A DNA stretch of 50,165 nucleotides from the IMG/VR virus record IMGVR_UViG_3300025781_000014, positions 1 through 50,165 of that record; one strand, 5' to 3'. Numbering within the stretch: the first letter of the stretch is position 1; each line of letters starts with the position of its first letter. Both the position numbers and the translations under genes were made by a program. Shown piece by piece: positions 2,845-43,307 of this stretch. The DNA comes from a virus. The notes beneath the pieces are model-generated. The model ran no database searches. It worked only from the letters and a program-made list of their open reading frames with translations, and had not been told where the DNA came from.

Positions 2845-3305
2845 TCATAAATCCAACCCAGATTTTGCACATGGTGTATCCAGCTGAAAACAGGTACACC
2901 AAATGTCAGCGTCCACTTGCCATTCCACCCCAAATAGGTATTCAGACTAAGCTGTTGCTCTAGTACAACACCTTGATTGCGTTGTTGGGTTGCCCATGGT
3001 TCGGGATATACAGGCTCATAGATGCCAGCCCACGCAAATTTAGGATCTGTGATATCAAAAAAACTCACAGATTCTATGACCACGGCTTTGTCCAAAATTT
3101 GATCTGGAATACAATCTTGATCAGTCTTGTTTAAAAATTCCACGCTTAGACAGACTGGCTGATCAGTTTCAAACTCAAAATCAAATTTGGTAGTTTCTGT
3201 CAACCAAATTTTGGTCAGATCGGGTTCAATACCTACCCGTATCTGCGGCGGTTCGGCGTGCCAGATGGGTCGTAATACCACCGACAGTTTAACTGGATAT
3301 GTCAT
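2841..3305 (-). CDS. hypothetical beta-rich protein next to the radical SAM gene, 154 aa
   Basis: Start chosen at MTYPVKLSVVL because this ATG lies within the last codons of the radical SAM gene (17-nt overlap) and the upstream part of the frame is clearly that gene in another frame. Alternating hydrophobic residues (KLSVVLRPIW, KFDFEFETD, KWTLTFGVPVF) suggest a beta-sandwich; there is no signal peptide. No family recognised. Tight coupling with the radical SAM gene suggests a substrate or partner, which is inference. Confidence 0.65.
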   Translation of the reverse strand: MTYPVKLSVVLRPIWHAEPPQIRVGIEPDLTKIWLTETTKFDFEFETDQPVCLSVEFLNKTDQDCIPDQILDKAVVIESVSFFDITDPKFAWAGIYEPVYPEPWATQQRNQGVVLEQQLSLNTYLGWNGKWTLTFGVPVFSWIHHVQNLGWIYD

Positions 3306-4611
3306 AGGTGTGTTGCGACAGTATGTTTTGTAATTCAGGAAACAGGAGCATGGCGTCGTGCCCGTACACACGATCCCAACGTTCGCAATGGCGAGTCATC
3401 AATTCCAACTGCTGATCACTGTCGGGCGGTGTCGCGGTTTTCAGTAGATTCAAACACAGTTTGGCCTGTTCCTTGATTATTTTTTTGTAGTTGTGCGGAT
3501 CACTGGCATTGTAATCACCACCAATTTCCACATCTTCAATCGATTCCAGGAATGTTTCAAACTGCGGTCGATACAGTTGTTTTATCTCAGAAGGCAATAT
3601 CTCCACACTCAAAAATCTAGGCGTCTGACAGATCAGGCCTTTTACAATCAATTCGCGATCCAGAGCATACTGTAACAGTCCAACATAGGACCCAATAGTC
3701 AGCAGACTTATTGCCGGTCTCAACGTCAGTGTGATCGAGCTGTTGTTGCAATAATCAAGATAAAGTTGAATGTTCTCCAAAACTTGTGCAGTATCTGTGC
3801 CTTGACGAGTGTACGAATTACGAGCGTCCAGAGTTTCTATACTGACCTCAATGCCCACGCGACGGAATTGTTTCAGTTTGTTTAACAAATCAGGCTTGAA
3901 CACAGTGCCATTGGAAACAAAACTGAAACACAGATCAAATTTTTCATGCTCGATCATGGTATCTACCAGATCCTCCATTCTCGGAGTCAACAAGGTCTCA
4001 CCACCCATAAAATGCAGGTTGGTCAGTTGTGGTATTTCCAACAACTGCTGTTTGAAATCGTTCCAGACTGACTGGTCCTTGGTCCAGTCAGTGCCCAGAT
4101 ATGATCTACTGGATTCTATGCCCCACTTGACCTGCTGACTGGCAATGGTGCTACTGGCTTCGGGTCCGCACATTTTACAAGCCAAATTGCAAAAATTTCC
4201 TAGATCAATATGCAAATCTATTGGATGCCTGGTAGAATAACCGTCATGGTCGGCACTGTAAGAAAAATGTTTGTAACCAGGACTTTGTGGAAAACTGTCA
4301 TTAAACGCAGTACGAGTAAAGATTACGCTCTTTTGATTGCTTTTGAAACGCCGGCTGTTACCGCCATGATCCTCCTCACTATAACAACGACTGCACTGAG
4401 AAACCTTGCTTGATCCTAAAATGCTGTTGCGAAAATTTCGTACTGGCTCGCTGTTGAACCATTCCATGATGGTCATGTGTTTGATATTGTATTGTGTCTG
4501 ATCTGGCGAATACAGTTTGTGAGATTCTTGGCAACAGATTCCTAGACTACCATCCCAATAGACATGGAGTTCGTACCATGGAGAGTTGCAAAATATAGAT
4601 TGATTGGGCAT
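3289..4611 (-). CDS. radical SAM protein with SPASM/twitch-like cysteines
   Basis: A 440-aa cytoplasmic enzyme expected to bind a [4Fe-4S] cluster and cleave S-adenosylmethionine to make a 5'-deoxyadenosyl radical. The cluster motif CNLACKMC (C141, C145, C148) is the canonical CX3CX2C. Downstream, LHFMGGETLL and LCFSFVSNGT match the GGE and beta-strand motifs of the family. Extra cysteines at C8, C26, C27, C73 and C76 sit N-terminal to the core, in segments (YWDGSLGICCQE) like those of twitch/SPASM auxiliary-cluster domains, here placed before rather than after the core. Such proteins often modify peptides or sugars; the substrate is unknown. The phage also encodes Fe-S assembly proteins (iscU, A-type carrier), which could support it. 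Confidence 0.88.
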   Translation of the reverse strand: MPNQSIFCNSPWYELHVYWDGSLGICCQESHKLYSPDQTQYNIKHMTIMEWFNSEPVRNFRNSILGSSKVSQCSRCYSEEDHGGNSRRFKSNQKSVIFTRTAFNDSFPQSPGYKHFSYSADHDGYSTRHPIDLHIDLGNFCNLACKMCGPEASSTIASQQVKWGIESSRSYLGTDWTKDQSVWNDFKQQLLEIPQLTNLHFMGGETLLTPRMEDLVDTMIEHEKFDLCFSFVSNGTVFKPDLLNKLKQFRRVGIEVSIETLDARNSYTRQGTDTAQVLENIQLYLDYCNNSSITLTLRPAISLLTIGSYVGLLQYALDRELIVKGLICQTPRFLSVEILPSEIKQLYRPQFETFLESIEDVEIGGDYNASDPHNYKKIIKEQAKLCLNLLKTATPPDSDQQLELMTRHCERWDRVYGHDAMLLFPELQNILSQHTYDISS

Positions 4612-6245: not shown

Positions 6246-6821
6246 CTACTTGCCCAGATCCGACACATAATCGCAGATACCCAGTGCCAGTGCTTCGTTG
6301 GCACTGAGCCATACATCTGTGGCCGGCAACAGTCGTTCCCGTATCACACTGTCATCCAGTCCCGTGGTTGCTTTGTACAGTTCAATCATGCGAGTCTGGC
6401 ATAAGTCAAATTCCTTGGTCATGGAAAACAGTTCATGATGTTTGCCTTCAGTTCCCCAACTATACTGATGACTCAAGATTGATGTGTTGGGTGTAAGCAC
6501 CCGTCGACCCCGAGTACCTGCCAGAAATATCATGAGTCCACAACTGGCTATCTGACCCAGACCCACTGTCTTGACTGGAATCTTGCTGGACTGCATGATA
6601 TCGATCAGGGCAAACGCTGGTTCCATTTCGCCTCCTGGACTGCATATCATGAGCAACAGTTCTTTTTTCTTTTTCTTGACTGCATGATTTTCGACCAAGA
6701 TCCATTCGGCTATGGGCTTGACAGTTTCAGCTGAAACATCGCCCATGAATATGTACATGCCAACATCTTGCAACTGTTGGCTAGCATCTTTGATGCTGTC
6801 TAGTTCGTTTGAAGCGGGCAT
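6246..6821 (-). CDS. clpP: ClpP-like serine protease subunit
   Basis: Proteolytic subunit that with an AAA+ unfoldase degrades proteins in the cytoplasm. 191 aa from the chosen ATG, which has Shine-Dalgarno CAGGAG 6 nt upstream; an in-frame ATG nine codons earlier lacks one. The triad is intact: Ser93 in GQIASCGLMIF, His118 in ILSHQYSWG, Asp169 in ATDVWLSANEAL. The substrate-binding SPGG is at 61-64. A Lys-rich insert (VKKKKKELLL) replaces the usual short loop before it. A TATAAT-like element lies just upstream. The phage also encodes ClpX and ClpS, so a dedicated protease is likely; it could also form mixed particles with the host ClpXP. Confidence 0.92.
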   Translation of the reverse strand: MPASNELDSIKDASQQLQDVGMYIFMGDVSAETVKPIAEWILVENHAVKKKKKELLLMICSPGGEMEPAFALIDIMQSSKIPVKTVGLGQIASCGLMIFLAGTRGRRVLTPNTSILSHQYSWGTEGKHHELFSMTKEFDLCQTRMIELYKATTGLDDSVIRERLLPATDVWLSANEALALGICDYVSDLGK

Positions 6822-6876
6822 GTGATCTCCTGATGGTAGTGTATCCATATATTATAATGGATTTTTAAACTATTTG

Positions 6877-9041: not shown

Positions 9042-9746
9042 TCATGTTCGCAGTGTGGCCAGTCCCAGTCCACGCAGTATCTGTATATACATCCAACCAA
9101 TATCAAATTCCCACCAGCGTCGACTCAAGCGTGGATTGGCAGGATCAAGATGGTGGTTGTTGTGCAATAGCTCACCACCAACAACAAGGTCGATGGGCAC
9201 AACATTTCTGCTTTGGTCACGTGTTTGGCCATTTCTATAGCCAACCCAGTGTCCAATGCCGTTGACCACACCTGCGGCCCAGAATGGAATCCAGGCTATT
9301 TGCACCGCCCAAACCAGCATTCCTGTCCAACCAAACACGGCCATATCAATGGTTGCCATCACAGCCACGCCCAACCAGTTGTATCTGGTGTACAGGTGCC
9401 GTTCGATCCAATCAGTTGGAGTACCGCGACCATAGGCCATCATGGTTTGAGTGTTACGTCCTTCGGTCACATAGTACCAGACTCCACGTGTCACAATGTT
9501 CCAGATACCATGCACATGCGGGCTGTGCGGATCTCCTGGTTGGTCACTGAATCTGTGATGTTTTCTGTGTATGGCCACCCATTGTCGTGTGATCATGCCC
9601 GTGGTCAACCATAACCATGCACGCATGGCATGTGCCACCACAGGATGGAATTCGACTCCGCGATGTGCTTGGCTGCGGTGTAAGTATAGTGTCACACATA
9701 TTATGGTTATGTGTGTCATGACCAGGGTAGCGATGATTGTGTTCAT
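9042..9746 (-). CDS. membrane fatty acid desaturase
   Basis: Di-iron membrane enzyme that introduces a double bond in acyl chains, of the acyl-CoA/acyl-lipid delta-9 group. 234 aa, shorter than host enzymes (about 300-400) but with all three histidine boxes: HRSQAH (23-28), HRKHH (60-64) and HNNHH (195-199). Hydrophobic segments at about 3-21, 37-53 and 125-165 fit the usual hairpin membrane topology. Desaturases of this type occur in several large T4-like aquatic phages, where they may alter membrane fluidity or modify phage-specific lipids; the substrate is unknown here. The gene stands alone after the GNAT gene. Confidence 0.9.
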   Translation of the reverse strand: MNTIIATLVMTHITIICVTLYLHRSQAHRGVEFHPVVAHAMRAWLWLTTGMITRQWVAIHRKHHRFSDQPGDPHSPHVHGIWNIVTRGVWYYVTEGRNTQTMMAYGRGTPTDWIERHLYTRYNWLGVAVMATIDMAVFGWTGMLVWAVQIAWIPFWAAGVVNGIGHWVGYRNGQTRDQSRNVVPIDLVVGGELLHNNHHLDPANPRLSRRWWEFDIGWMYIQILRGLGLATLRT

Positions 9747-11498: not shown

Positions 11499-12188
11499 AT
11501 GAACAATTATTATGTATATCGACTGATTGATCCAAGAAACGGAAAGACGTTTTATGTGGGCGAAGGCAAAGAACAACGGGCTTGGTCGCACTTGAAATTT
11601 ACCAGTGGGTGTAATAATCCGCACAAAGATCGAGTTATTAGAAAAATACAATCATTGGGTCTTGAAGTCGGAGTCGAATTGGTCGAAACCAACTTAACCA
11701 AACAACAATCTATACAATTTGAAGAACAGTTGATAGAAGATATTGGTATTGAAAATTTAACCAACATTTGCAAAAACGCTAATCCTCCAATATTATTTGG
11801 TGAACAAAATGGATTCCACGGCAAGACTCATACTGACGCTAACAAGAAAAAATGTGGTGATGCTAATAGAGGAAAGAATAATAAAACAAGGGCTGGCGCG
11901 GAATCCATTTCAAAATCAATGCAAGCACGATGGCAGGATCCCAAATTGAGAGAAAATCAAATAAATGCTCTCAAATCTCGCAAAGGCGAAAAACGCAGTT
12001 TAGCAGCAATAGAGTCTTATAAAAAATCAGCGGCTCAACGAAATGCAAAAATGACCCCGGCACAACGATCAGCCAGAACACTTGCCGGTTGCGAAACTAA
12101 GAAAATAAAATATGCAGGACTCAAAAGAAAATCTTATACCGACGAGACCGGAAAAAAAAGATTTAGATGGATTCCTGCCACTGATTAA
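11499..12188 (+). CDS. GIY-YIG homing endonuclease with NUMOD3 motif
   Basis: Free-standing mobile endonuclease, 229 aa. The GIY-YIG core is at the N terminus: YYVYRLIDPRNGKTFYVGEG, a conserved Arg (about 28) in the following helix, and E74 in the FEEQLIEDIG helix. A NUMOD3 DNA-binding repeat follows (GEQNGFHGKTHTDANKKK), then a Lys/Arg-rich tail. Its base composition is more AT-rich than its neighbours, as expected for a recent arrival. It lies between a hypothetical gene and uvsE and overlaps the convergent uvsE 3' end by 26 nt. Confidence 0.9.
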   Translation: MNNYYVYRLIDPRNGKTFYVGEGKEQRAWSHLKFTSGCNNPHKDRVIRKIQSLGLEVGVELVETNLTKQQSIQFEEQLIEDIGIENLTNICKNANPPILFGEQNGFHGKTHTDANKKKCGDANRGKNNKTRAGAESISKSMQARWQDPKLRENQINALKSRKGEKRSLAAIESYKKSAAQRNAKMTPAQRSARTLAGCETKKIKYAGLKRKSYTDETGKKRFRWIPATD

Positions 12189-13182
12189 ACAGCTGCCCGG
12201 CAGCCAGATTTTTTCCCTTGCTTTCTGTTTGTATATCTGCCCACTCTAGATGTGTCAACGCCCATGCATTGAGTTGTTTATTGTTGTAAAAATCACTGTG
12301 GGATCTCAATTTGGCTTTGTTGGTGATTGTTAACAGTTGTTCCAGCGACGGCATGATATCAATAAATTCGGCAATGTGTTCTTCTCTTGATTGACTGTAA
12401 TGTATTGCTGGTCTAACGCCTTGCCAACTGTCAATTACTTGAGAAATACGATGATCTTGCGAGTTAATGTATTCCCCGGTATTGATAAAATGATGATGTA
12501 TGTCTAGCACTATGCCAACACGCTTGCCTAATGGTAACAGGACATCAAGACCGGCTTGATATTCGTCATTTTCTAATGTAAGACAATTTCGTAGTTCCGG
12601 GCTCATTTTTTGCCAAGCTGTATCAAATCCAGCAACACCTAATTTGCCGCTCAGATGCACATTGATCTTGAAATCCAACTTGGATTTACCGTAGCCCATC
12701 CAGCGAGCCATGTCAGCATGATATTCTAATTCTTCTAATGATCTTTCCACAATACCAGGATTATTGCTGACTATACAACAGAACTGTCCGGGATGGAAAC
12801 TGAGTCGCACGTCCAGTCGTCTGGCCGTTTCACCGATGGGAGCAAATATTCTCTCAAGGTGATTTTGCACATCGGTCTGTTGCCACCACGCTTTCCAGTC
12901 TTTCTCGGTATAGCCCTGTAGCATCTCCGACCCCAGTCTAACCATTCTGCGTTCGGCAGGCAAGGTGGCCACACGTTCAATCATTTTCACTGCGGCCGTG
13001 GTGTTGTGATTCATGATGTCCCACTGGCGTTGTTCGGCTTCAAGCGGATGTTCACGCAACCAACGCATGGTTGTACTACGACCATTCAATTCCCTATCCA
13101 CGGCGTTCACTTTCATGCCGCCGCATTCGCTGGGATCGTTGAGCCATTTGCAACAGAAACCAATTCGTTTTAGAGTATCCAT
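12163..13182 (-). CDS. uvsE: UV damage endonuclease UvsE/UvdE
   Basis: TIM-barrel, metal-dependent endonuclease that nicks DNA 5' of UV photoproducts and starts an alternative excision repair route. 339 aa, within the family range. Characteristic strands and metal ligands: IGFCCKWLND, RLSFHPGQF, CLTLENDEY, GIVLDIHHHF, AIHYSQSR and KLRSHSDF, in the expected order. Transcription probably starts at its own sigma70-type promoter (13190-13219), only 7 nt from the ATG, so the mRNA may be leaderless. In T4-like phages this role is often taken by DenV; a UvdE-type enzyme is the less common choice. Confidence 0.92.
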   Translation of the reverse strand: MDTLKRIGFCCKWLNDPSECGGMKVNAVDRELNGRSTTMRWLREHPLEAEQRQWDIMNHNTTAAVKMIERVATLPAERRMVRLGSEMLQGYTEKDWKAWWQQTDVQNHLERIFAPIGETARRLDVRLSFHPGQFCCIVSNNPGIVERSLEELEYHADMARWMGYGKSKLDFKINVHLSGKLGVAGFDTAWQKMSPELRNCLTLENDEYQAGLDVLLPLGKRVGIVLDIHHHFINTGEYINSQDHRISQVIDSWQGVRPAIHYSQSREEHIAEFIDIMPSLEQLLTITNKAKLRSHSDFYNNKQLNAWALTHLEWADIQTESKGKNLAAGQLFNQWQESI

Positions 13183-17694: not shown

Positions 17695-18003
17695 TTATGG
17701 CACTTCGGGTTCTAGCTTGATCTGTAGCGGGAAATTTTGTGTGCGAGCATGTACTGTGACTTCGATACCCTTTTGCTCGGCTATTTCATATGGCAACACT
17801 GCCACAGTGGCTGCACCTAGAGTATGTATATCTTCGGTGATCTTGACAGCAGTTTCGGTGGTATAATTAAAAAAACTCATCAAGGTTTCAATCACGAACT
17901 CCATGGTGGTCAGGCTATCATTGAGGTATATGACCTTGAACATGGGTGGTTCTGCCAACTCGTGATTGATTTTTATTTTTGTTATGGCGTCTGATTGTGA
18001 CAT
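17695..18003 (-). CDS. clpS: ClpS-like N-degron adaptor
   Basis: 102 aa, normal ClpS length. In bacteria ClpS delivers N-end-rule substrates to ClpAP. The signature PPMFKVIYLNDSLTTMEFV (19-37) is clear, and residues that form the N-degron pocket in E. coli ClpS are kept as Asn28, Asp29, Met34 and His60; one pocket Asp is Ser30. The flexible N-terminal extension is present (residues 1-17). No ClpA is visible in the window, only ClpX and ClpP, so it may redirect host ClpAP or work with the phage ClpX. Late box at 18055 and a stable hairpin lie in the leader. Confidence 0.92.
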   Translation of the reverse strand: MSQSDAITKIKINHELAEPPMFKVIYLNDSLTTMEFVIETLMSFFNYTTETAVKITEDIHTLGAATVAVLPYEIAEQKGIEVTVHARTQNFPLQIKLEPEVP

Positions 18004-18070: not shown

Positions 18071-18502
18071 CTACTTTGAGTAAGTGATAGCAATGGTCTT
18101 TGGCTTCTTTTCCTCTGGAATGATACGTTCCAGATTGATAGTCAAGATGCCATCTTTTTGCACTGCATGATTCACTTCCACATGCTCGGCCAAGGTGAAA
18201 TTTCTTACGAAATCACGATCACTGATACCTTTGTGTAGATAGTCATGTGCTGATGCTGTCTTGGTTCCTCGCACAGTCAACACACGATTTTCCAACTGGA
18301 TATCGATTTCATCTCGAGCAAATCCGGCCACAGCGATTTCAATCAGGAAGTTGTCTTCTGAAATTTTCACTATATTGTACGGCGGATAGTTGGTTTGTTG
18401 ATTCTGTATTCGATTGAGTTCATCAAACATGGAATCAAATCCGATACCAAATTTGTGTATCGAAGGAAGGTCAAGAGACCGTAAGGTTAAAGTGTTTGTC
18501 AT
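18071..18502 (-). CDS. hsp20: Hsp20 small heat-shock protein
   Basis: ATP-independent holdase chaperone; phage Hsp20 is a hallmark of many T4-like cyanophages. 143 aa from MTNTLTLRSLD, chosen for AAGGAGAAAAAT just upstream. The alpha-crystallin domain spans about 35-128, with YPPYNIVK, FLIEIAVAGFARDEIDI and the signature DGILTINLERIIPEEKKP. The C-terminal tail carries an I-x-I motif (TIAITY) used in oligomer assembly. The leader contains both a sigma70-type promoter and a T4-like late box, so it may be expressed throughout infection. Likely protects unfolding proteins during infection, and could hand clients to the phage Clp protease. Confidence 0.95.
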   Translation of the reverse strand: MTNTLTLRSLDLPSIHKFGIGFDSMFDELNRIQNQQTNYPPYNIVKISEDNFLIEIAVAGFARDEIDIQLENRVLTVRGTKTASAHDYLHKGISDRDFVRNFTLAEHVEVNHAVQKDGILTINLERIIPEEKKPKTIAITYSK

Positions 18503-18562
18503 ATTTTTCTCCTTTATTAAGCAAGATGACTGTGTAGACCCGACCATCGGCATCTACATGTT

Positions 18563-19578: not shown

Positions 19579-19800
19579 TCAGTATAATTTTTTTGGAAGT
19601 TGTTGTGCCTGCAACTGCTTGCGCCACCGATTTTGCGCTGCGGCTTTTTTCTTTTTACGGGCAGTGGTTGGTTTGGTATAGGTTTCGCGGTCGCGCAGTT
19701 CGTTCAAGAGACCGCTATCGGCTATCTTTTTCTTGAACTTGCGCAAGGCCTTTTCTACATTGTCGTCCTTGACCAAGACTGATCGACCATATAATTTCAT
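19579..19800 (-). CDS. rpsU: ribosomal protein bS21
   Basis: Small basic 30S subunit protein near the anti-Shine-Dalgarno end of 16S rRNA, needed for initiation in many bacteria. 73 aa, standard length. Conserved features: [36 protein letters not shown] and the terminal LY. The start overlaps the clpX stop by 4 nt (ATGA), so it is co-translated with clpX. Phage copies of bS21 are known in aquatic phages and are thought to favour translation of phage mRNA; that is established only by inference. Confidence 0.95.
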
Positions 19801-20993
19801 GTGTTTTCCTGTAACAGAGTCATGGGAGTATTTACCAGATCTTTGTTGATGACCACGTGAAGTATGTTGTTGCGACTGTAGCGTGGCAGATCGTACATGT
19901 GTGGCAACAACACACGTTCGATTTCGGCCTGTAGACCACGTGCGCCGGTGCCGGACTTGAGTGCGCGACCGGCAATGAGTGCCAGACTGTCTGAATCAAA
20001 TACCAGATCTACTCCGTCCTGCTGGAACAACCAACGATACTGATCTACCAGATTGTTTTTTATAGTGATCAATATGGCTCGCAGTTGATCGAGATCGAGC
20101 TCTTGCAGGACCACAGTGCCAGAAAACCTTCCAACAAATTCAGGTATGAGTCCGTAGCGTACCAGATCGTCGGGCATGGGTGCAAGATCGGTTGAGACTA
20201 TGGCAGTGTTGGCGCCAAACCCCATAGTGGTGCCAGCTGTGCGTTTTTTTATTATTTCCGACAGACCAACAAAAGCCCCGCTGGCCACAAACAGGATATT
20301 TCGAGTGTCTATCTCAACCGAATCACTGGACTGATTGCGCCGATTCCCTGCTGGATTGATGCGGCATCGAGTGCCTTCTATCAGTTTGAGCAGGGCCTGT
20401 TGTACGCCTTCGCCTGATACATCTTTGCTGACGGTGTTGCTTTCGCTTTTGCGTGCTATCTTGTCTACTTCATCCAGGAACACGATACCACGTTGACATT
20501 GATCAACATCACCGTCCGCAGCAACATACAGTCGACTGATCAACACATCTACATCATCACCCACGTAACCGGCTTCGGTCAAGGTTGTGGCGTCGGCAAT
20601 CACGAACGGCACGTTGAGATACTTGGCCACCACTCGGGCCATAAGGGTCTTGCCTACCCCGGTCGGACCCAACAGCATGATGTTGTTTTTTTGCAGTTCC
20701 AGGTCTAGACCGTCATAACTGATTCTTTTGTAATGGTTCACGATGGCCACGCTCAAGGCACGCTTGGCTGTTTCTTGACCAATCACGAACTGATCCAGGT
20801 ATTCATACAGCTCTTTTGGGTCCGGTATACGAAATTTGCGATCACGCTTGCGTGTGTTTTTCTTGGGATCAGTCAGCAGTCCACTGCACAGGTCCACACA
20901 TTCGTTGCAGATGGCTGCATCATCAACCACGATCAGTTTTACCACCTGATCCTTGTGCTTGATGCAGAAGCTGCACTTGTCTGGTGTGGCCAT
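19797..20993 (-). CDS. clpX: ClpX-like AAA+ unfoldase
   Basis: ATP-driven unfoldase that feeds ClpP. 398 aa, slightly shorter than E. coli ClpX (424). N-terminal zinc finger with C7, C10, C29, C32; Walker A GPTGVGKT (109-116); pore-1 loop GYVG (142-145); Walker [10 protein letters not shown] (170-178); sensor 2 GTGARGL (349-355). The ClpP-docking loop, IGF in E. coli, is present as MGF (257-259), so docking to ClpP is plausible. The stop overlaps the bS21 start. Which ClpP it uses (phage or host) cannot be told from sequence. Confidence 0.95.
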
Positions 20994-36487: not shown

Positions 36488-37197
36488 TTCGCTAGATAGT
36501 ACTGTTCAACCCTGTGCCACCATAGCTGGCGATACAGTTCAAACTCGGCGCCCTCAATGACAAATTCTTGATATTGCGGCTGAGTGATCAAGTTACCTTG
36601 GTCATCCATCTCGGGTTTGACACACATGAGTACCACACCTTTTTGTATGTCGGTGCCATGTACTGCATTGTGCGCTTCGGCGTAGGCACACAGTTGCAAG
36701 AAATAGTCCTCAATCCACTCACGTCGTTTGGGCTTGTTGGTCTGCTTGTAATCCAGAATGCTCGGTTGATACAGATGTAGACCAGCGGCATCCGTGGTTC
36801 CGGCATAGATGCCAGGAAAATACAGCGGAACCTCATAGCCCCAGACCTCGCTCACGTGGCACAGACCGTTTGTTATAATAGTCTGTGCCATGGTATGGCT
36901 TTGTTGGCTATAAGGATTGGATCCAGGATCAGCAATGGCACCTGTTTTTGTATAATCTTCCAGATACTTGTGCATCCTGGTGCCTCTATTGGCCGCTTCA
37001 GTCGTGATGGCCTGTGCCTGTGTATGCCCCACACGATTGCGCCAGTTTTGCAATGCCTGGCGTTTCTCTTCAGGTTTGGTGGCCTCCAGTATGGTAGTCA
37101 CGCTGGGCAGTCGACCGCCATCGGGTGTGGCATACAAGCGTCGACCATCCACAGTTTCTCTGGGTATGGGTTGGTAATTGAATCGAGGATTGTACAT
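36481..37197 (-). CDS. PD-(D/E)XK exonuclease (MGME1/RecB-like)
   Basis: 238 aa. The nuclease core has RLPSVTTILEATKP, ANRGTRMHKYLED, AGTTDAAG (Asp136), and ILDYKQT (Asp149, Lys151), giving the D...D-x-K pattern; then IEDYFLQLCAYAEAHN, the Q-x3-Y motif of the RecB/MGME1 family. Degrades DNA ends, probably in recombination or host-DNA breakdown. Strong promoter at 37204-37233. Confidence 0.85.
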   Translation of the reverse strand: MYNPRFNYQPIPRETVDGRRLYATPDGGRLPSVTTILEATKPEEKRQALQNWRNRVGHTQAQAITTEAANRGTRMHKYLEDYTKTGAIADPGSNPYSQQSHTMAQTIITNGLCHVSEVWGYEVPLYFPGIYAGTTDAAGLHLYQPSILDYKQTNKPKRREWIEDYFLQLCAYAEAHNAVHGTDIQKGVVLMCVKPEMDDQGNLITQPQYQEFVIEGAEFELYRQLWWHRVEQYYLANH

Positions 37198-37203
37198 TGT
37201 GTT

Positions 37204-37233
37204 ATTATAACACTATCACTGCGTCAATGTCAA
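37204..37233 (-). promoter_or_regulatory. strong sigma70-type promoter of the exonuclease gene
   Basis: TTGACA (37228-37233), 18 bp, TATAAT (37204-37209). The stop codon of the sulfotransferase-like gene lies in the spacer. Confidence 0.8.
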
Positions 37234-37884
37234 CTGTTGTAACTGTTCTTTGTAGATATGGTATAACTGCATTATGCTATTGTAGTTTTTAATTATGGTA
37301 CTGTATTGATAATTGGTCTTCACATGAGACACATCGGTATTTCCAAGATTGTCTCTAACAAATTCTGGAATATCCTCATAGTATAACTGTGTGAATTTAA
37401 TATTTTTATTCAAGAAATACGATTGTAATTCGGCCATAATATGCTCGCTATACACATAATGTTTTACATCTTTGTGATATTGCTCGGTTAGTTCGATAGG
37501 CTCCACAAATTCGAGAGACGGATTATCTTGATTGTAGTTCCACATATTTAGATGGCGGGCTACCAAATTGCTGCTGATTGCATCTGCTATACACCGTCTA
37601 GCAGTTAGATAGATGTGGGTGTACTGTTCAAAATTAAACAGGTCAAATTCGCAGATGATTTTTTTGTATGCAAGCTGAGCAGGATGTAATCTTATTACTC
37701 CAACCGGTTTGGTTAGTATTCCAGCCAGCAATTTCATGTACTGCTCAGAGTGTGGGGCTATGTTAGGTAAGCTAACAATCTGTTCCAAGTCTTGACCCAA
37801 AATAGGTATTCCATGATGATTTCCGATAGCTTCTAAAAGAAGACTACTTCTAGATCTAGGAAATCCTACTATGCAGATTTTCAT
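37216..37884 (-). CDS. P-loop sulfotransferase-like protein
   Basis: 222 aa from MKICIVGFPRSRSSLLLEA; the phosphosulfate-binding loop GFPRSRSS at the N terminus is the family signature, and IYLTARRCIADAISS matches the 3'-phosphate-binding strand-loop (R, S). No signal peptide or membrane helix. It would transfer a sulfo group from PAPS to a sugar or peptide; the acceptor is unknown. AT-rich compared with the genome. Overlaps the A-type carrier by 4 nt (ATGA). Confidence 0.75.
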   Translation of the reverse strand: MKICIVGFPRSRSSLLLEAIGNHHGIPILGQDLEQIVSLPNIAPHSEQYMKLLAGILTKPVGVIRLHPAQLAYKKIICEFDLFNFEQYTHIYLTARRCIADAISSNLVARHLNMWNYNQDNPSLEFVEPIELTEQYHKDVKHYVYSEHIMAELQSYFLNKNIKFTQLYYEDIPEFVRDNLGNTDVSHVKTNYQYSTIIKNYNSIMQLYHIYKEQLQQLTLTQ

Positions 37885-38207
37885 ACGCGAAAACTTTCTC
37901 CACACCCGCAACGATCCCGTTCGTTGGGATTCACGAATTCAAATCCTTCGTTGAGTCCTTGACGCACATAGTCTATGGTCATGCCTTCGAGATAGGCAAT
38001 ATCACGTTGGTCTATTCTTATGACAAAATCGTCATGAGCATGATCGATGGCCCCAGAAGTCTTGGTTATGTCATCTATATATTCCAACACATAGGCCAAG
38101 CCCGAACACCCAGTGGTGCGCACACCCACTCGGATACCCACACCGTGTCCGCGGCGTTGGAGATTCTGCGCAATCTTTTTACTGGCCGTGTCGGTTACGG
38201 TAATCAT
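37881..38207 (-). CDS. iscA: A-type iron-sulfur carrier (IscA-like)
   Basis: 108 aa. The three cluster-binding cysteines are Cys34 (TTGCSGLAYV), Cys100 and Cys102 (DRCGCGESF), the family signature. Passes Fe-S clusters from IscU to target enzymes. Downstream of iscU; the phage itself encodes a possible client, the radical SAM protein. The start region overlaps the downstream end of the homing endonuclease by 29 nt. Confidence 0.92.
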   Translation of the reverse strand: MITVTDTASKKIAQNLQRRGHGVGIRVGVRTTGCSGLAYVLEYIDDITKTSGAIDHAHDDFVIRIDQRDIAYLEGMTIDYVRQGLNEGFEFVNPNERDRCGCGESFRV

Positions 38208-38925
38208 CTAATTCGCTTTCCCATATTATTTCTACTGTGTATCCTAAAGATTCAAAATACTGTTGTCTAGTTAAATCTAATAACCATTTTTCTTCGGCTG
38301 TCTTTTTCAGCTGAGGATGATAAAAATCTTTATTGAATAATTTTGGATTACAATGCCAGTAATCACCATAAATTTCTATTATGTGTTTAGTTGATTCATT
38401 CACATAATCTGGTTTGTATTTTCCAATTTTAACATTGATCTCATAATCAATTAAAATTGTTTCTAGAGATTTTTCTTTTTTACTACGAGGAGAAGTTTTA
38501 GCAAAATGTCCAACATTTTCTACACCATATCTTTCAAGATTGGTCTTTTTAACTTTTTCAATATAATCAGAACTGTGCCTCTTTCCCTTAAAATTACCAG
38601 GTAACCCTTTATTCCACGCTACTTGTAATCCTTGCGTATCTTTATTCCAAGGAGTTCTACCTTTGCAAGCATTTGACAAGTTTTTAACCCAAGTATCTCT
38701 ATTCTGTTCTCTAGTAGCATATCGTTCAGCATTCCAGGTTCTAGATTCTGCCATATCTGGATTTCTTTGCCAGTGTAGTTTAGCAGAGCAAGATTTTGAA
38801 CAGCACTCTATACTTGAGCCCTTTATCAGTGTACCGCAAATAGGGCATGGTTTATGACCTTTTTGGTATCCAGTTCTATTATCTTTTCTAAGTGATATTC
38901 CACAACCACATTTACACCTATTCAT
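38179..38925 (-). CDS. homing endonuclease with NUMOD3 repeats and Vsr-like (EDxHD) nuclease domain
   Basis: 248 aa from MNRCKCGCGISLR. Two zinc-finger-like cysteine pairs at the N terminus, NUMOD3-type repeats (GRTPWNKDTQG, GLPGNFKGKRHSSDYIEKV), then a Vsr-like domain: EKSLETILIDY (Glu), YKPDYVN (Asp), HIIEIYGDYWHCN (His). Free-standing, inserted between iscU and iscA. Late box at 38931. AT-rich. Confidence 0.85.
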   Translation of the reverse strand: MNRCKCGCGISLRKDNRTGYQKGHKPCPICGTLIKGSSIECCSKSCSAKLHWQRNPDMAESRTWNAERYATREQNRDTWVKNLSNACKGRTPWNKDTQGLQVAWNKGLPGNFKGKRHSSDYIEKVKKTNLERYGVENVGHFAKTSPRSKKEKSLETILIDYEINVKIGKYKPDYVNESTKHIIEIYGDYWHCNPKLFNKDFYHPQLKKTAEEKWLLDLTRQQYFESLGYTVEIIWESELDDYRNRHGQ

Positions 38926-38930
38926 AACTT

Positions 38931-38937
38931 TATTTAG
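38931..38937 (-). promoter_or_regulatory. late box CTAAATA before the Vsr-like endonuclease gene
   Basis: CTAAATA, AAGTT, ATG; no Shine-Dalgarno. Identical spacing to 11487 and 40953. Confidence 0.65.
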
Positions 38938-38951
38938 CAAAGTTATTTGTT

Positions 38952-40358
38952 CTATGTTAGGTTATGTCTTTTCTTATAGTCGTCAATTGCCGCTGTAATG
39001 GCGGATTCTGCCAATATGCTACAATGTATTTTGACGGGCGGGAGCGCCAACTCTTCAGCAATTTGGCTGTTCTTAATGCTTCCTGCTTCGTCCAGTGTTT
39101 TCCCTTTGACCCATTCAGTGATAAGACTGGATGATGCAATAGCCGATCCACAATTATGTGACCCAACTCTGTTAGAGAAAAACACATGAGCTCCACCCTC
39201 TAATTTTAAATCATATACCACAACTGATTTTCCATCTCTTTCACAACCGCGTAACTGATTTAAATGAGTAATTGGTGAAACATCTACAATTTTCATTCCG
39301 TTATGAATGAAATTTTGCACTTCTGACAATGATTTATCAATATCTTCTATTGCTAAAAATAATGAATCGTAGCCGGCTGTGGCCAACTGTTTGCGACGAT
39401 TCACTACATAATTTGATTCTTCTGACCTATCTTGCATGAATTTGGGCATACGCTTTGTATACACTTCTATGCATTTTTTCTTACCAGGAACAATAAAATC
39501 TGGGCTTGCTGGTCCTGCATCAGTTTGAATCCATATCTTTCCAGCACTCCATTTTATTGCTACATTGTTTTCTTCAAATAAATCAATATATTTTTGTTCA
39601 ATACTAGTAGGTTTAGACCAATCTCTTCGTGCCATTCCCTGTTGCCATTTTTTGACATAATCAGAATCTTTCCAATTTTTTAAAGAAGCAATCCTAGATT
39701 TTTTCTTTTTGGTTTCTAAATCTTTACACACATACCCGGATTGATTTTGTGGTAATACTGAATGATCAAAAATTTGATTCCATTCTTTCATTCTATTGCT
39801 ATTTTTTTGTTTGAGTTCTGTGCGATGTCTATTATTTGTAAGAATTCGTAACTCGTGTTCGGTTATTTCATACAACTCTTGACCTACTTGTAGTTGTTGT
39901 GCTTCTACTGGTGTATTATCGGCATTCCAAAATATATGTTCTTTTGTGCAAATTAATGAGAAGGTGCCAGGATTGGTATTTTTTCTACTCGTCTCGCGTT
40001 TAAAAGTAATAATCAACAACTCATCAACATCAACCGAATGTTTAATTATATTTTGTATTTTTTGATTAACAATTTTTTCACCGTTCCAGGCCAACACCTC
40101 GTCGCCGATTTTTAAATCTTTTATTTTTTTAATGCAGGTTGGAGTATTAACAGGAGCATTACTAGTTAAACAGCCGTAAGTTTTAAACCGGGCGTCTGTA
40201 ATAATTCCAACATCATTTACCTTTATACTTAACTGTAAAACATCTCCACAACTAGGTGCCCCCACAAGTCCAACTCCAACACCCTCGTCACCCTTCTTAA
40301 ACGATCCCACATTTCTTGGATTTTCGTAATGATCCAAAACAGCATCACTATAAGCCAT
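38952..40358 (-). CDS. iscU: IscU-like Fe-S scaffold interrupted by an intein
   Basis: 468-aa precursor. N-extein residues 1-62 and C-extein 403-468 would join into a 128-aa protein, exactly the length of E. coli IscU. Conserved IscU residues: Cys37 (GAPSCGD), the catalytic Cys63 equivalent at the splice junction (KTYG|CGSAIASS), LPPVK and HCSILAE. The scaffold holds the nascent [2Fe-2S] cluster. Intein residues are 63-402. AGGAGA lies in the overlapping end of the HNH gene. The exteins are AT-richer than the OmpA-like neighbour. A diverged iscU stub lies upstream at 41024-41113. Confidence 0.93.
   Translation of the reverse strand: MAYSDAVLDHYENPRNVGSFKKGDEGVGVGLVGAPSCGDVLQLSIKVNDVGIITDARFKTYGCLTSNAPVNTPTCIKKIKDLKIGDEVLAWNGEKIVNQKIQNIIKHSVDVDELLIITFKRETSRKNTNPGTFSLICTKEHIFWNADNTPVEAQQLQVGQELYEITEHELRILTNNRHRTELKQKNSNRMKEWNQIFDHSVLPQNQSGYVCKDLETKKKKSRIASLKNWKDSDYVKKWQQGMARRDWSKPTSIEQKYIDLFEENNVAIKWSAGKIWIQTDAGPASPDFIVPGKKKCIEVYTKRMPKFMQDRSEESNYVVNRRKQLATAGYDSLFLAIEDIDKSLSEVQNFIHNGMKIVDVSPITHLNQLRGCERDGKSVVVYDLKLEGGAHVFFSNRVGSHNCGSAIASSSLITEWVKGKTLDEAGSIKNSQIAEELALPPVKIHCSILAESAITAAIDDYKKRHNLT
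39153..40172 (-). mobile_element. intein with Vsr-like endonuclease domain in IscU
   Basis: 340-residue intein. Block A starts at Cys1 (CLTSNAPVNTP) with LKIGDEVLAWNG; block B has ICTKEHIFW (T-x2-H); block F has VVYDLKLEGGAHVFF; block G ends VGSHN followed by Cys+1. All splicing residues are present, so it is probably active. The internal domain (about residues 290-370 of the precursor) has SIEQKYIDLFEE, SPDFIVPGKKKCIEVY: a PD-(D/E)XK/Vsr-like nuclease, not LAGLIDADG. Confidence 0.88.
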
Positions 40359-40947
40359 ATGTTTCTCCTGTTATTGACTCTATTACATCGTTAGTTTGAA
40401 AACTATCCCACTTGGATCTGTTTTCTTCACCTTTAATAAATTGTATATTTTTTTTACTACCAAGTAAATAGGGATCTATTCCCAATTCAAACCCTTGAAC
40501 TATAGGAATGATATGATCTATTTGCCAACTATGTTTATATTTGCCAAACACAGGAACCCACTCATTATTAACTTTCATTTCTTTAATAGTTCTATATGTA
40601 GCATAACGAACTTTTCCTCGATAAAGTTTGAGAGCATCGTTACAAGGTTTTTTAGTTCTTAGATTATTTAATTTGCCGTCTGCATTAGGATTATTTTCTT
40701 TCCATTTTTGACTCTGTCTTTTGTTTGGTAAACCTTTATTCCAACCGTGTCCTTTTTTAAGACCTTCGATATTTAATTTAGACTTTTGTTCGTTAGTAAG
40801 TTTAATACCTTTATTCCAAGCAGTGTTTCCAGGACGATTGATTGGATTTTTACAAGGAGTTGAACAATACTCTAAGTATCTAGGTTTTGTTTCAAAATCT
40901 TGGTTACAATGAAGACATTTTTTAATTAAACCATACTTGCTTTTCAT
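40348..40947 (-). CDS. HNH homing endonuclease with NUMOD3 motifs
   Basis: 199 aa. N-terminal zinc-finger-like CLHCNQDF and CSTPC, two NUMOD3 motifs (NTAWNKGIKLTNEQK, GHGWNKGLPNKRQS), and an HNH nuclease: WQIDHIIPI, NIQFIKGEENRSKWD. Ends overlapping the iscU start by 11 nt. AT-rich. Own late box at 40953. Inserted between an iscU stub and the full iscU. Confidence 0.9.
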   Translation of the reverse strand: MKSKYGLIKKCLHCNQDFETKPRYLEYCSTPCKNPINRPGNTAWNKGIKLTNEQKSKLNIEGLKKGHGWNKGLPNKRQSQKWKENNPNADGKLNNLRTKKPCNDALKLYRGKVRYATYRTIKEMKVNNEWVPVFGKYKHSWQIDHIIPIVQGFELGIDPYLLGSKKNIQFIKGEENRSKWDSFQTNDVIESITGETYGL

Positions 40948-40952
40948 ATAAG

Positions 40953-40959
40953 TATTTAG
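40953..40959 (-). promoter_or_regulatory. late box CTAAATA before the HNH gene
   Basis: CTAAATA, CTTAT, ATG; no Shine-Dalgarno. Confidence 0.65.
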
Positions 40960-41023
40960 TCTTGGAGTACCTGTATGTGGTCATTTATAAATGCCTATAT
41001 TAAGATTATACACGTTTTTTAAT

Positions 41024-41113
41024 TCAGGTGCCTATGCCTTCCTCGTCTTTGGCAAAAGAACCCACATTGCGTGGATTCTCATAATGATCGAGTAACTTTT
41101 CTGAATAGGCCAT
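41024..41113 (-). pseudogene. iscU: 5' stub of a second iscU gene (29 codons)
   Basis: Begins MAYSEKLLDHYENPRNVGSF and ends in a TGA after AKDEEGIGT. It matches the full IscU start (MAYSDAVLDHYENPRNVGSF) but the DNA has diverged at many third positions and in the KKGDEG region. The start overlaps the stop of the OmpA-like gene (TGATG), so this was the original, translationally coupled gene. Its remainder is gone, replaced by the HNH and intein-bearing copy. Confidence 0.85.
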
Positions 41114-41700
41114 CAGTCGGCTGTTCCGTAGACTTCTACAACCACTCGTCGATTCATGGAACGACCATATGCTGTGCTGTTGGTGCTAGCTGGCTCGCGT
41201 TCGCCTTTGCTGTCAGCAAACACACGATTGGCCTCTATGCCTTGCCCGATCAGATAATCAGCCACTGCTCGAGCTCGTCGTTGCCCCAATCGCATGTTGT
41301 AAGCATCGGTGCCCACACTGTCGGTGTGTCCCACCACGATCACGCTGTCAACATGGACCGATTTTAACCGTTTTACCAATTGATCAAGAGTGTGAAGACC
41401 TTGTGGTTTGATCACGGCACGGTCAAAATCGAACAAGGACTGTGCCAAATATGTCACTGGAGGCAATTGCACGATTGCGACTGATTTTTCAACTTTGGGC
41501 ACAACAACAGGCTCGGCAGATTTTGTGATCGCTGGCTGTGTGGCTCCGTCGCAGTTGGTTTCGGCTGTGGCCGGTGTCCATGCACTGTTTCTCCAGCATA
41601 ATCCAGTGGAATTGGTCACTGGACCAGCTAGTCCGGTCCAGTTGTTAGAAGCTTGTGCGGCCCCTGTTACTACTAATAATGCTAACAATAACGATTTCAT
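41113..41700 (-). CDS. OmpA-like peptidoglycan-binding exported protein
   Basis: 195 aa. Signal peptide MKSLLLALLVVTGAAQA, then a short region with GLCWRNSAWTPATAETNCDG (typical, from memory, of Burkholderiales OmpA just after the signal), then an OmpA C-terminal domain: SLFDFDRAVIKPQG, VIVVGHTDSVGTDAYNM, LGQRRARAVADYL, GRSMNRRVVVEVYG. No beta-barrel, so it is a barrel-less, periplasmic peptidoglycan binder. Probably acquired from the host. Possible roles: stabilising the envelope or controlling lysis; not shown. Confidence 0.9.
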   Translation of the reverse strand: MKSLLLALLVVTGAAQASNNWTGLAGPVTNSTGLCWRNSAWTPATAETNCDGATQPAITKSAEPVVVPKVEKSVAIVQLPPVTYLAQSLFDFDRAVIKPQGLHTLDQLVKRLKSVHVDSVIVVGHTDSVGTDAYNMRLGQRRARAVADYLIGQGIEANRVFADSKGEREPASTNSTAYGRSMNRRVVVEVYGTAD

Positions 41701-41708
41701 AATTTCCT

Positions 41709-42014
41709 TTAGTTTGGTATCAAGGCCATTTTGCTTTGGCCAGTTTGTGGATCTGTCATCTGTTGCCAATGATATCCTGGGGGATCAACCGGAGTCGGTT
41801 GTTGAACCACTACCGGCGGTTGAACTAGTACCACTGGCGGCGGAGCATAGTAATAGGGTCTCGACAGTTCGTAACCGATCACACCACCAATCAAGGCCGG
41901 CGCCACCCAGCCACTGTAACCGCGATAGCAACAACCGTTGCGCCAATGTGCTTCAGCTGGTAGTGAACTGGTCACAGCGAGTGTTAGAATACCTGTTGCA
42001 ATAAGTTTTTTCAT
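41709..42014 (-). CDS. exported small protein, glycine/proline-rich, 101 aa
   Basis: Start at MKKLIATGILTLAV with AGGAG 7 nt before; signal peptide cleaved near SLPAEAHW. The mature part has GWVAPALIGGVIGYELSRPYYY and a Pro/Val-rich tract (APPPVVLVQPPVVVQQPTPV). Resembles small host periplasmic proteins with a glycine-zipper-like segment. Precedes the OmpA-like gene by 8 nt. Both may be host-derived. Confidence 0.75.
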   Translation of the reverse strand: MKKLIATGILTLAVTSSLPAEAHWRNGCCYRGYSGWVAPALIGGVIGYELSRPYYYAPPPVVLVQPPVVVQQPTPVDPPGYHWQQMTDPQTGQSKMALIPN

Positions 42015-42033
42015 GGTCAACTCCTAGTGTATA

Positions 42034-42062
42034 AGTGTAGTATACTTATAACAGATTGTCAA
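42034..42062 (-). promoter_or_regulatory. sigma70-type promoter of the secreted-protein pair
   Basis: TTGACA (42057-42062), 17 bp, TACACT (42034-42039), about 20 nt before the ATG at 42014. Confidence 0.65.
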
Positions 42063-42066
42063 CCAT

Positions 42067-42414
42067 TTAGGTGCGTCTTTTTAGAGCTGCCTTGGCGTTT
42101 TTGTCTACCACGGCTCGGGCCTGGTCTACCGGCATGCCCACATCTCCACCGGCAGGGTTGCCAACAAAACGTATCACATCCGACCCCGGATCCATGGGCT
42201 CAAGTATGTCCTTGAGCGGTTCTTGTTGCAGGTAATCAGAAAGATTGTTGGCATTGAGTTCTACTCCTAGACTTTTGGCAGCCTGGATAAAAGCGTCAGT
42301 GCTGATCTGTTTTTGGGCATTTTGATCGTTGGCTCGACCAGCCAAGAACTGACTCAAGGCCAGTAGTTTTTGAGAGCTGACGTCGTTGCCCTCAAATATT
42401 TCTCTCATGCGCAT
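42067..42414 (-). CDS. hypothetical phage protein, possibly virion-internal, 115 aa
   Basis: Starts MRMREIFEG (second ATG two codons in is possible); the stop of the next gene overlaps the start (TAATG). Helical core (SQKLLALSQFLAGRA) and an Asp/Gly-rich loop. Its N terminus resembles those of several nearby genes (MKLQEL, MNIFEGG, MQIHEL), a capsid-targeting-like pattern. No family recognised. Confidence 0.65.
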   Translation of the reverse strand: MRMREIFEGNDVSSQKLLALSQFLAGRANDQNAQKQISTDAFIQAAKSLGVELNANNLSDYLQQEPLKDILEPMDPGSDVIRFVGNPAGGDVGMPVDQARAVVDKNAKAALKRRT

Positions 42415-43307
42415 TATCTGCGACCACGACCCAGTGCAGCCGGAGGCGAGCCTAGATTGGAGTCCAGATCCATGTCGGCTTCTAGATCACTGTTGCCAGC
42501 ATCAGGTGCTGGTTCAGGTTCGCCCATCGCGGGCTGTTCACTGTCCACTGCACCCATGGCCGGAGGCATGCCGGCATCTTGTCCGGTTACCACACTCAGG
42601 GCCTGTTCCAGTTGCTGTTTGCTGGCCTGTAGGTTTTGTACCAGGCCACCCAAGGCAGCTGAGGCATCTTGGTTGAACTGTGCGGCCTGTTGTGCGCCAA
42701 CTTCGTTCTTGATCTGATCTGCCAAAGCTGGCAAATCTTTGAACTGCATGCTGGTCACGTCTTCCAGTATCTTTTGTACACGATCTACCATGTCCTGCGC
42801 AGCCAAAACCACTTGTGCCTGCTGTATTTCGCTTTCGCTCAAGCGACGATACAGGCTATTGCGTCTACCACGATTTTCCATGGTTGGCGAATTCATTTGC
42901 TGTTGTATCTGGCTACGTTGTGCTTGCAATGCACGTATCTGGTCATCGATCTGTTTGAGCTGATCTTGGTCGGCTTTTTTCTTCTGAGAAAGATTTTGTG
43001 CAGCCATGGCTGCTGCTTGTGCCGGGCTCTGTGTCTGTGTCTGTGTTGGAGGCGGCATCATGTCTTCTTTGAGACGCGAGCTCAATACCTGTTCCATCAT
43101 GATCAACTTGAGATAAGCCGGATCGCGTTCGCTGTGATGAAAATCTGGAGTAGCACGGTGTTCTTGCACCAGACCACGCACACGTTGTAGCAGATTGCGT
43201 GCCTGACTCTTGGTCATGTTGCCGGGTCGCACGCGACCACCAAAATAGCTTTCAAATACCTTTGCGGCTTGTTTTGTTGGGCTTGCGGATAGTTCTTGCA
43301 GTTTCAT
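42414..43307 (-). CDS. probable virion or core protein with coiled coil, 297 aa
   Basis: Start at MKLQELSASPTKQ; the upstream in-frame codons overlap the previous gene. N-terminal VFESYFGGRVRPGNMTKSQ and HHSERDPAYLKL are shared, from memory, with virion proteins of T4-like cyanophages. A long Gln-rich coiled coil (about 105-225) follows, and an acidic Pro-rich C terminus ends AALGRGRR. Late box at 43331. Confidence 0.7.
   Translation of the reverse strand: MKLQELSASPTKQAAKVFESYFGGRVRPGNMTKSQARNLLQRVRGLVQEHRATPDFHHSERDPAYLKLIMMEQVLSSRLKEDMMPPPTQTQTQSPAQAAAMAAQNLSQKKKADQDQLKQIDDQIRALQAQRSQIQQQMNSPTMENRGRRNSLYRRLSESEIQQAQVVLAAQDMVDRVQKILEDVTSMQFKDLPALADQIKNEVGAQQAAQFNQDASAALGGLVQNLQASKQQLEQALSVVTGQDAGMPPAMGAVDSEQPAMGEPEPAPDAGNSDLEADMDLDSNLGSPPAALGRGRR

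Follow-up and report, generated by a model that had tools for sequence, protein, structure and literature searches.

The window analysed here is an entire IMG/VR virus record of 50,165 bases. An open reading frame of 468 amino acids on its minus strand (38952..40358) encodes the Fe-S scaffold IscU with an in-frame intein, as judged from the ORF list, profile matches and phmmer. Precursor residues 1-62 form the N-extein (IscU residues 1-62; 40173..40358, minus strand), residues 63-402 are an intein of 340 amino acids that runs from Cys1 to His339-Asn340 (39153..40172, minus strand), and residues 403-468 form the C-extein (IscU residues 63-128; 38955..39152, minus strand), whose first residue is the catalytic Cys63 in the +1 position. 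The extein limits are taken from phmmer and a comparison of junctions, and those of the intein from an alignment, a structure model and fold matches.

The family profile TIGR01999 matches the precursor in two stretches with 196.1 bits, above its cut-off of 192.4, and a phmmer search against solved chains identifies both precursor ends as IscU/NifU-like (best E 3.8e-53). Also present are Cys37, Asp39, Cys63, His105 and Cys106, which we take to be the IscU ligands (E. coli numbering). These matches bear out the preliminary description of this DNA, which proposed a phage IscU. Its residue count is correct as well, in that the exteins contribute 62 + 66 = 128 residues and are split between Gly62 and Cys63. 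The further proposal that Cys63 is both a cluster ligand and the +1 splicing nucleophile is supported, since one codon serves both roles. Viral iscU is itself already in print, with 11 mentions in the available portion of PMC5332604.

The neighbouring genes are on the same strand as iscU. Downstream lies iscA (37881..38207; TIGR02011 125.3 bits against a cut-off of 150.6, TIGR00049 above its cut-off), and between iscU and iscA there is a gene for a Vsr-like putative homing endonuclease (38179..38940; TIGR00632 E 1.1e-5, below the cut-off; phrog_3339, a homing endonuclease family, E 8.7e-4). Upstream is an HNH-like ORF of 199 amino acids (40348..40947; alignment of 28 members), the end of which overlaps the start of iscU. 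This ORF is preceded by a relic of the iscU 5' end (41024..41113; sequence comparison), which comprises 29 codons followed by a stop and stands directly after an OmpA-family gene (41113..41769; profile and sequence) whose stop codon overlaps the ATG of the relic.

Elsewhere on the minus strand, the same contig encodes ClpP-like, ClpS and ClpX proteins (6246-6848, 17695-18003 and 19797-20993), as well as Hsp20, a UvdE-type UV endonuclease, a fatty acid desaturase and a radical SAM/SPASM protein (18071-18553, 12163-13182, 9042-9746 and 3289-4611). A GIY-YIG ORF on the plus strand (11499-12188), with a sub-threshold NUMOD3 match, is another putative homing endonuclease gene.

The intein and its distribution

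The splicing motifs of the window intein are Cys1, T76-K-E-H79 in block B, and His339-Asn340 followed by Cys+1, which together constitute the class 1 pattern (Cys1, TxxH, terminal HN, Cys at +1). In an alignment of 29 inteins, whose members are 42-84% identical to that of the window, C1, H79, D321, H339 and N340 are invariant, and both T76 and the adjacent C75 are kept in at least 90%. The earlier claim that all splicing blocks can be seen in the sequence therefore holds. Alignment and model together place the N-terminal Hint part at intein residues 1-100 (39873..40172), an inserted endonuclease-like domain at residues 190-275 (39348..39605) and the C-terminal Hint part at residues 290-340 (39153..39305), all on the minus strand and with approximate boundaries.

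The preliminary description had proposed a profile search to establish whether the insert is a Hint domain. Pfam profiles give only weak matches: Hint reaches E 8e-5 on the precursor, which is under the gathering score, and at E<=0.01 PT-HINT matches 10 and Hom_end_hint 5 of the 29 inteins. The Hint fold is found instead in an AlphaFold2 model of the intein (pLDDT 82), which aligns to known inteins and Hint domains with Z 14-19 among the 50 matches listed. The best of these, with Z 18-19, are bacterial intein-like and RecA inteins, and 131 residues of 2lwy superimpose at 1.7 A with Z 19.3.

The inserted domain contributes E192, P224-D225-F226, K233 and E236, all of which are invariant in the 29 inteins. 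A Foldseek search matches this domain to 3r3p, the catalytic domain of the EDxHD homing endonuclease I-Bth0305I, with probability 1.00, a modest E-value of 0.009 and a TM-score of 0.63 by target length; 3r3p is the sole member of that family among the 50 Foldseek matches listed. I-Bth0305I comes from a phage intron. The likeness lies in the predicted Vsr-type fold, and on this basis the inserted domain resembles a Vsr/EDxHD-like homing endonuclease; E192, D225 and E236 are candidate members of its catalytic set.

The insert is no chance occurrence, given that there are 39 IMG/VR loci that encode a relative of this intein. Every locus that includes the N-terminal junction (37 of 37) is an IscU split at Gly62/Cys63, and every locus that includes the C-terminal junction (again 37 of 37) reads VGSHN/CGS, with Cys always following the intein. 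The frame is interrupted within the N-extein in three of these loci (L008, L011 and L034). A junction pattern independent of the intein itself recovers 39 viral stretches, most of which belong to contigs already counted, while L351, L370, L371 and L378 are additional. When the DNA pattern for HN/CGSAIASS was searched in bacterial contigs there were four loci, three of which are IscU inteins: Candidatus Achromatium palustre (L344), an alphaproteobacterial MAG (L345) and a Thiotrichaceae MAG (L346). The fourth (L347) is a chance match with no IscU intein. Thus, no fewer than 40 IMG/VR contigs, as well as the three bacterial genomes, have this intein at the identical position in IscU.

The intein-bearing gene of Achromatium is flanked by the end of iscS on one side and iscA on the other, and it is the sole iscU match found in its assembly. 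The Thiotrichaceae genome contains a further match, which is NifU-like. A peptide-pattern search of genome contigs for intein relatives returned 11 stretches, none of which was confirmed. In the INPHARED phage set there are 11 records with a match to IscU or SufU. In none of them does a single location account for 80% of the precursor, and the one annotated iscU is uninterrupted in both Phage C48C1 and Acinetobacter phage MD-2021a.

Intein and extein identities were compared by gapped DNA alignment of 21 loci (210 pairs). When the intein DNA is at least 80% identical (20 pairs), intein identity exceeds that of either extein in 18 pairs, with mean identities of 0.880 for the intein versus 0.727 and 0.789 for the exteins. 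The pair L016/L017 is an example (0.896 versus 0.684 and 0.725), and the exceptions are L009/L010, wherein the C-extein is identical and the N-extein is at 0.731, and L008/L011. In the full set of 210 pairs, intein identity is higher than both extein identities in 93, with almost equal means (0.728 versus 0.707 and 0.709). Judged by such identities, an apparent mark of homing is visible in recent pairs and absent in old ones, and only the closer pairs show what looks like horizontal spread. Together with the patchy spread over different phages and three bacteria, this is the pattern of a putative mobile element.

The IscU intein is real and, as far as we searched, unreported in IscU. The preliminary description knew of no reported example, and there is likewise none among the papers listed in searches of the openly licensed PMC literature; inteins of this kind were nevertheless already present in public sequence. 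The finding adds a new intein site, located at a catalytic cysteine of an Fe-S scaffold that is itself widespread, and occupied in both phages and bacteria.

The HNH-like cassette and the Cys37 motif

In an alignment of the window's HNH-like ORF with 27 of the 44 related ORFs listed, residues C11, C14, C28, C32, D144-H145, N167, N176 and K179 are invariant in all 28 members. Pfam HNH matches only two of the 28 at E<=0.01, which makes this a weak family assignment, and a fold comparison of the protein with the PDB gave no match at E<=0.001. No Rfam family matches positions 37000-42500 at E<=1, and on this basis a group I intron around the HNH-like or Vsr-like ORFs is rejected. A TAAATA stretch, presumably reminiscent of T4-type late promoters, is located just before the HNH start (about 40953-40958, minus strand) and also precedes the HNH-like ORF of L008, L033 and L149.

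The relic upstream of the HNH-like gene has 62% nucleotide identity over 87 positions with the complete window iscU. That complete gene reads VGVGLVGAPSCGDV, and most other phage genes read VGTGMVGAPACGDV. Its codons 22-38 (40245..40295, minus strand) correspond to a non-canonical VGVGLVGAPSCG (usually VGTGMVGAPACG) and, by motif comparison, are a putative recoded HNH target. At the Cys37 motif the window gene reads TGT GGA GAT with no insert.

Among the best 80 of 133 HNH relatives, the gene directly downstream is a readable iscU in 78, and the other two contigs end before it. None of these 78 genes has a canonical intact Cys37 motif: 50 have a stop after Gly38, two carry a 4-nt insert, and 26 are intact and non-canonical, four of which belong to the window's own species. 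The non-canonical changes are T29 to V, I or F, V32T with A34S, A36S, and V40L. By comparison, 76 iscU loci collected by C-extein similarity comprise 72 canonical, one non-canonical and three interrupted motifs. A canonical intact motif is seen in L019, L033 and L102 despite more distant HNH-like matches upstream.

The association is also apparent from the gene side. After deduplication there are 341 viral iscU genes, 316 of them with 700 nt or more of upstream sequence, and an HNH-like match is near 57 of 74 stop genes, both of two otherwise interrupted genes, and 3 of 240 intact genes, the intact set being pooled from several scans and omitting the window species. The HNH family and altered Cys37 motifs are thus closely linked, and the 17 stop genes without an HNH-like gene may have lost it. 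Relics of iscU are found upstream of an HNH-like gene or its remnant in three lineages, which are the window species, L149/L159, and L030/L032/L037 (decayed). The relic of L149/L159 ends exactly after the Cys37 codon, and that of the window ends at codon 29. In L041 an OmpA homologue (61%) is followed directly by iscU, without an HNH-like gene.

Linkage of an endonuclease gene to a target gene that is split or has become resistant is familiar from the WHO elements of yeasts and from the mobE insertion in nrdA of phage Aeh1. Here, the cassette is HNH-like and is found in phage iscU. A hidden HNH within a phage methylase is described in the available part of PMC11855218.

Interrupted iscU genes in related phages

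Interruptions were sought as TGCGG followed by 4-34 free bases and codons for DV(L/M).LQI. There are 106 such stretches, of which 105 are iscU genes interrupted at one codon; examples over iscU codons 22-40 come from L121-L226 (L061 = L124, L122, L175). In 102 of the 105, Gly38 is immediately followed by a stop and GAY is preceded by a Gly codon. All interrupted sets together comprise 117 loci, 83 distinct sequences and 30 insert types, with the caveat that the locus sets share members and that one contig may be represented by several loci (e.g. L008/L179 and L061/L124). In 27 of the 30 insert types no codon separates Gly38 from the stop, and in 29 a Gly codon stands before GAY; the scan pattern required the take-off GG but neither the stop nor the landing Gly. 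Inserts are 4-10 nt long and fall in all three frames (lengths modulo 3 of 1, 2 and 0 in 45, 23 and 15 sequences). Take-off and landing codons are identical in 30 of the 83 distinct sequences, are a GGT/GGC pair in 17, differ otherwise at the third base in 35, and do not include a landing Gly in one. Take-off codon, adjacent stop and landing codon are therefore all represented in these relatives. The window's own iscU has no insert with a stop, and a scan of the window for the bypass motif yielded no matches.

A variant of the scan with TGT recovers at least six interrupted genes, most of its matches being intact genes reached through VGTG codons. A sample that was not chosen for interruption comprises 111 viral iscU genes (111 of 120 stretches examined), of which two are interrupted, 108 are intact (five of these read GAPEC) and one is too short. 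The bypass motif has 258 matches in the loci examined, only one of which lacks the iscU peptide, and simple shuffling of some of the loci produced two motif matches in 1.13 million bases.

Selection was compared between groups of pooled phage genes using at most 4000 pairs per group with dS of 0.1-2. For codons 58-102, dN/dS is 0.107 in stop-interrupted genes versus 0.127 in intact genes, and for codons 39-47 it is 0.076 versus 0.042. Selection persists beyond the stop and is somewhat weaker right at the junction.

The stop genes also differ upstream of the insert. Gln or His occupies position 26 in all 79 stop genes versus 6 of 259 intact genes, seemingly because codons 25-28 pair with codons 34-38. 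The 10 outer pairs of this stem are standard in each of the 39 distinct stop sequences versus 3 of 251 intact ones; in several of these pairs the 3' letter is dictated by search pattern and protein. Four pair types occur where the third base of codon 26 faces that of codon 36. In the stop genes the stem is 95.4% paired with 38 doubly changed cells, and none of 500 shuffles attains either figure or the covariation score; the two measures based on counts of pairs and types are reached by 34 and 7 of 500 shuffles. Sliding the stem alignment lowers the paired share to 33-41%. An intact control (39 sequences from a random 66 of the 251 distinct intact genes) is 60.9% paired, a value that 225 of 500 shuffles equal or exceed, and has no covariation signal. 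Mean folding energies are -25.1 kcal/mol for stop genes versus -11.8 for intact genes. All 36 stop genes have a Shine-Dalgarno match of at least 5 bases immediately 5' of the stem, versus 27 of 193 intact genes. The stem is found without an insert in L026, L029 and L033, and with an insert that lacks an adjacent stop in L149, L207 and L236.

There are seven loci with an interruption at a second site, near the Cys106 motif (L128, L132, L148, L198, L202, L310 and L485). Each has a 6-nt insert, consisting of a stop and CTN, between Pro and Val of LPPVKIHC, and these inserts follow an AGGAGG sequence and a predicted stem. Downstream of the L148 gene is a Vsr-like ORF 65% identical to that of the window. 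No Vsr match is near the other six among the matches listed, and some of those contigs end soon after. The sequence AED is found in 338 of 354 distinct iscU genes. Of the Vsr-linked genes, those of the window, L043, L046 and L148 read AES, L277 reads ASD and L164 reads AED. L035 has a 1-nt deletion in an A run near VK/IHC, which is either an error or a real frameshift, with a distant Vsr-like ORF downstream. We regard the putative link between Vsr-like genes and changes at the Cys106 motif as a lead.

Interpretation of the iscU alterations

We consider it very probable that phage iscU is a shared target of homing elements, wherein a mobile intein occupies Cys63, an HNH-like cassette is accompanied by a recoded iscU, and a Vsr-like gene lies downstream. 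The splicing, DNA cleavage, resistance and homing that we infer would proceed as follows. The intein at the Cys63 codon would splice out after translation to restore the 128-residue IscU, and its Vsr/EDxHD-like domain would cut intein-free iscU, with the result that the intein is copied in. The HNH-like cassette would have invaded iscU and left the old start as the 29-codon relic. The complete iscU after the HNH gene has a recoded 5' part in which the otherwise near-invariant VGTGMVGAPACGD motif is altered, and it would thereby escape the HNH-like enzyme. Each nuclease might cut the conserved iscU of a co-infecting phage and be copied in along with the resident's resistant version. The possible routes to resistance would be recoding in the window, a bypassed short insert in its relatives, and the intein at Cys63. 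This suggests that different selfish nucleases attack iscU, one small gene, in the vicinity of all three cysteine motifs, and that some of them seemingly leave ribosome-skipping signals behind.

The preliminary description had instead read the intein as a regulatory switch, in which redox state or iron controls splicing and thereby gates Fe-S assembly, a claim that finds no support here and that we regard as very improbable. It draws on the double role of the +1 nucleophile as a cluster ligand, and the conservation of C75 leaves it a small opening. However, the N-extein ends in KTYG and lacks a Cys at -3, the usual redox trap, and only the catalytic C1 is invariant among the cysteines of the 29 inteins. 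The patchy occurrence, with closer pairs in which the intein is more alike than the exteins, also speaks against a switch. The other two conserved Cys motifs of iscU bear unrelated alterations in other phages, which indicates that conservation of the DNA explains the intein site; homing into conserved DNA accounts for this site better than gating. Possible precedents for gating are a mycobacterial DnaB intein, described as stress-responsive in the part of the literature available, and, in the accessible portion of PMC8891592, the SufB intein of Mycobacterium tuberculosis, which is likewise inside an Fe-S cluster assembly protein. The window differs from the latter in its host (IscU in a phage), its site (the catalytic Cys63 codon) and its Vsr/EDxHD-like domain. 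Even less credible is a dying intein within a non-functional phage IscU. The frameshift of L035 near the HC motif and the N-extein interruptions in three related genes would fit such decay, but the splicing residues C1, H79, H339 and N340 are invariant, codons 58-102 remain constrained in both intact and stop-interrupted genes, and the intein occurs in bacterial isc gene order with no further iscU match found there. A dead intein in the sole iscU match found in Achromatium would be costly. Somewhat less remote, but still improbable, is that the HNH-like gene is a mere neighbour that does not cut iscU. The gene order could be inherited by descent among related contigs that are not independent, and the canonical motifs of L019, L033 and L102 are exceptions to the association. 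Against this, five different motif positions are altered among the 26 intact genes linked to HNH, which represent 10 distinct motif strings, there are 24 distinct stop motif strings in addition, and relics that end at or before codon 37 are upstream of an HNH-like gene or remnant in three lineages.

The wider conflict over iscU, and above all the candidate bypass elements in relatives of the window, is the surprising part of these observations. We think it likely that phage iscU holds a new natural family of short ribosome-bypass elements at the Cys37 motif, with a second form at the Cys106 motif. Inserts of this kind would keep iscU translatable while destroying the target of the linked HNH (Cys37) or Vsr-like (Cys106) endonuclease, and the window would represent an alternative outcome, with target recoding and an intein at the third Cys motif. 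From the aligned genes, the candidate element consists of an SD-like sequence, a covarying stem-loop, a take-off codon, a stop, 0-4 further nucleotides and a landing codon. Perhaps the ribosome stalls before the stop with peptidyl-tRNA-Gly, the stem refolds behind it and the SD-like sequence holds the mRNA. The tRNA could then land on the next Gly codon, which would give the wild-type sequence for any insert length. The interrupted relatives might instead be pseudogenes, or might be read by stop readthrough, simple frameshifting or re-initiation, which is possible but which we find rather doubtful. This alternative could draw on the 15 of 83 distinct sequences whose insert is in frame, the ATG at codon 41 in 71 of the 83, the third-base differences beyond GGT/GGC, the relaxed constraint on codons 39-47 and the second-site take-off and landing codons (CCN and CTN), which do not match. 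Set against these points are the occurrence of inserts in all three frames with such consistent placement of stop and Gly, a codon 41 that is CTT, CTA or TTA in 12 of 83, the purifying selection on codons 58-102, and the covarying stem and SD-like sequence just upstream. Stop readthrough, re-initiation and a +1 shift of the known prfB type are each rated lower than bypass.

About a hundred phage contigs carry candidate short bypass elements, and there is no iscU bypass among the papers listed in searches of the openly licensed PMC literature. The available portion of a 2016 review (PMC5009743) treats the bypass of T4 gene 60 and its homing-endonuclease history, and states that short-distance counterparts had long been presumed and that no natural hop, either short or over an in-frame stop, was known; the candidates would make both directly testable. 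As described there, T4 gene 60 shares with the iscU relatives a take-off Gly, an adjacent stop, a landing Gly, a 5' stem-loop and an upstream homing endonuclease gene, with an insert thought to protect against cleavage. The relatives differ in that their net insert is 4-10 nt, as opposed to 50 in T4, their SD-like sequence is 5' of the stem, and their take-off and landing codons differ in some cases; in the window itself, iscU lacks an insert. The same portion of the review describes the byps of Magnusiomyces capitatus, which are also inserts tolerated by bypass and also include several imperfectly matched codons. However, byps are mitochondrial and seemingly independent of mRNA context, whereas the candidates described here have a structured context and are found in one phage gene.
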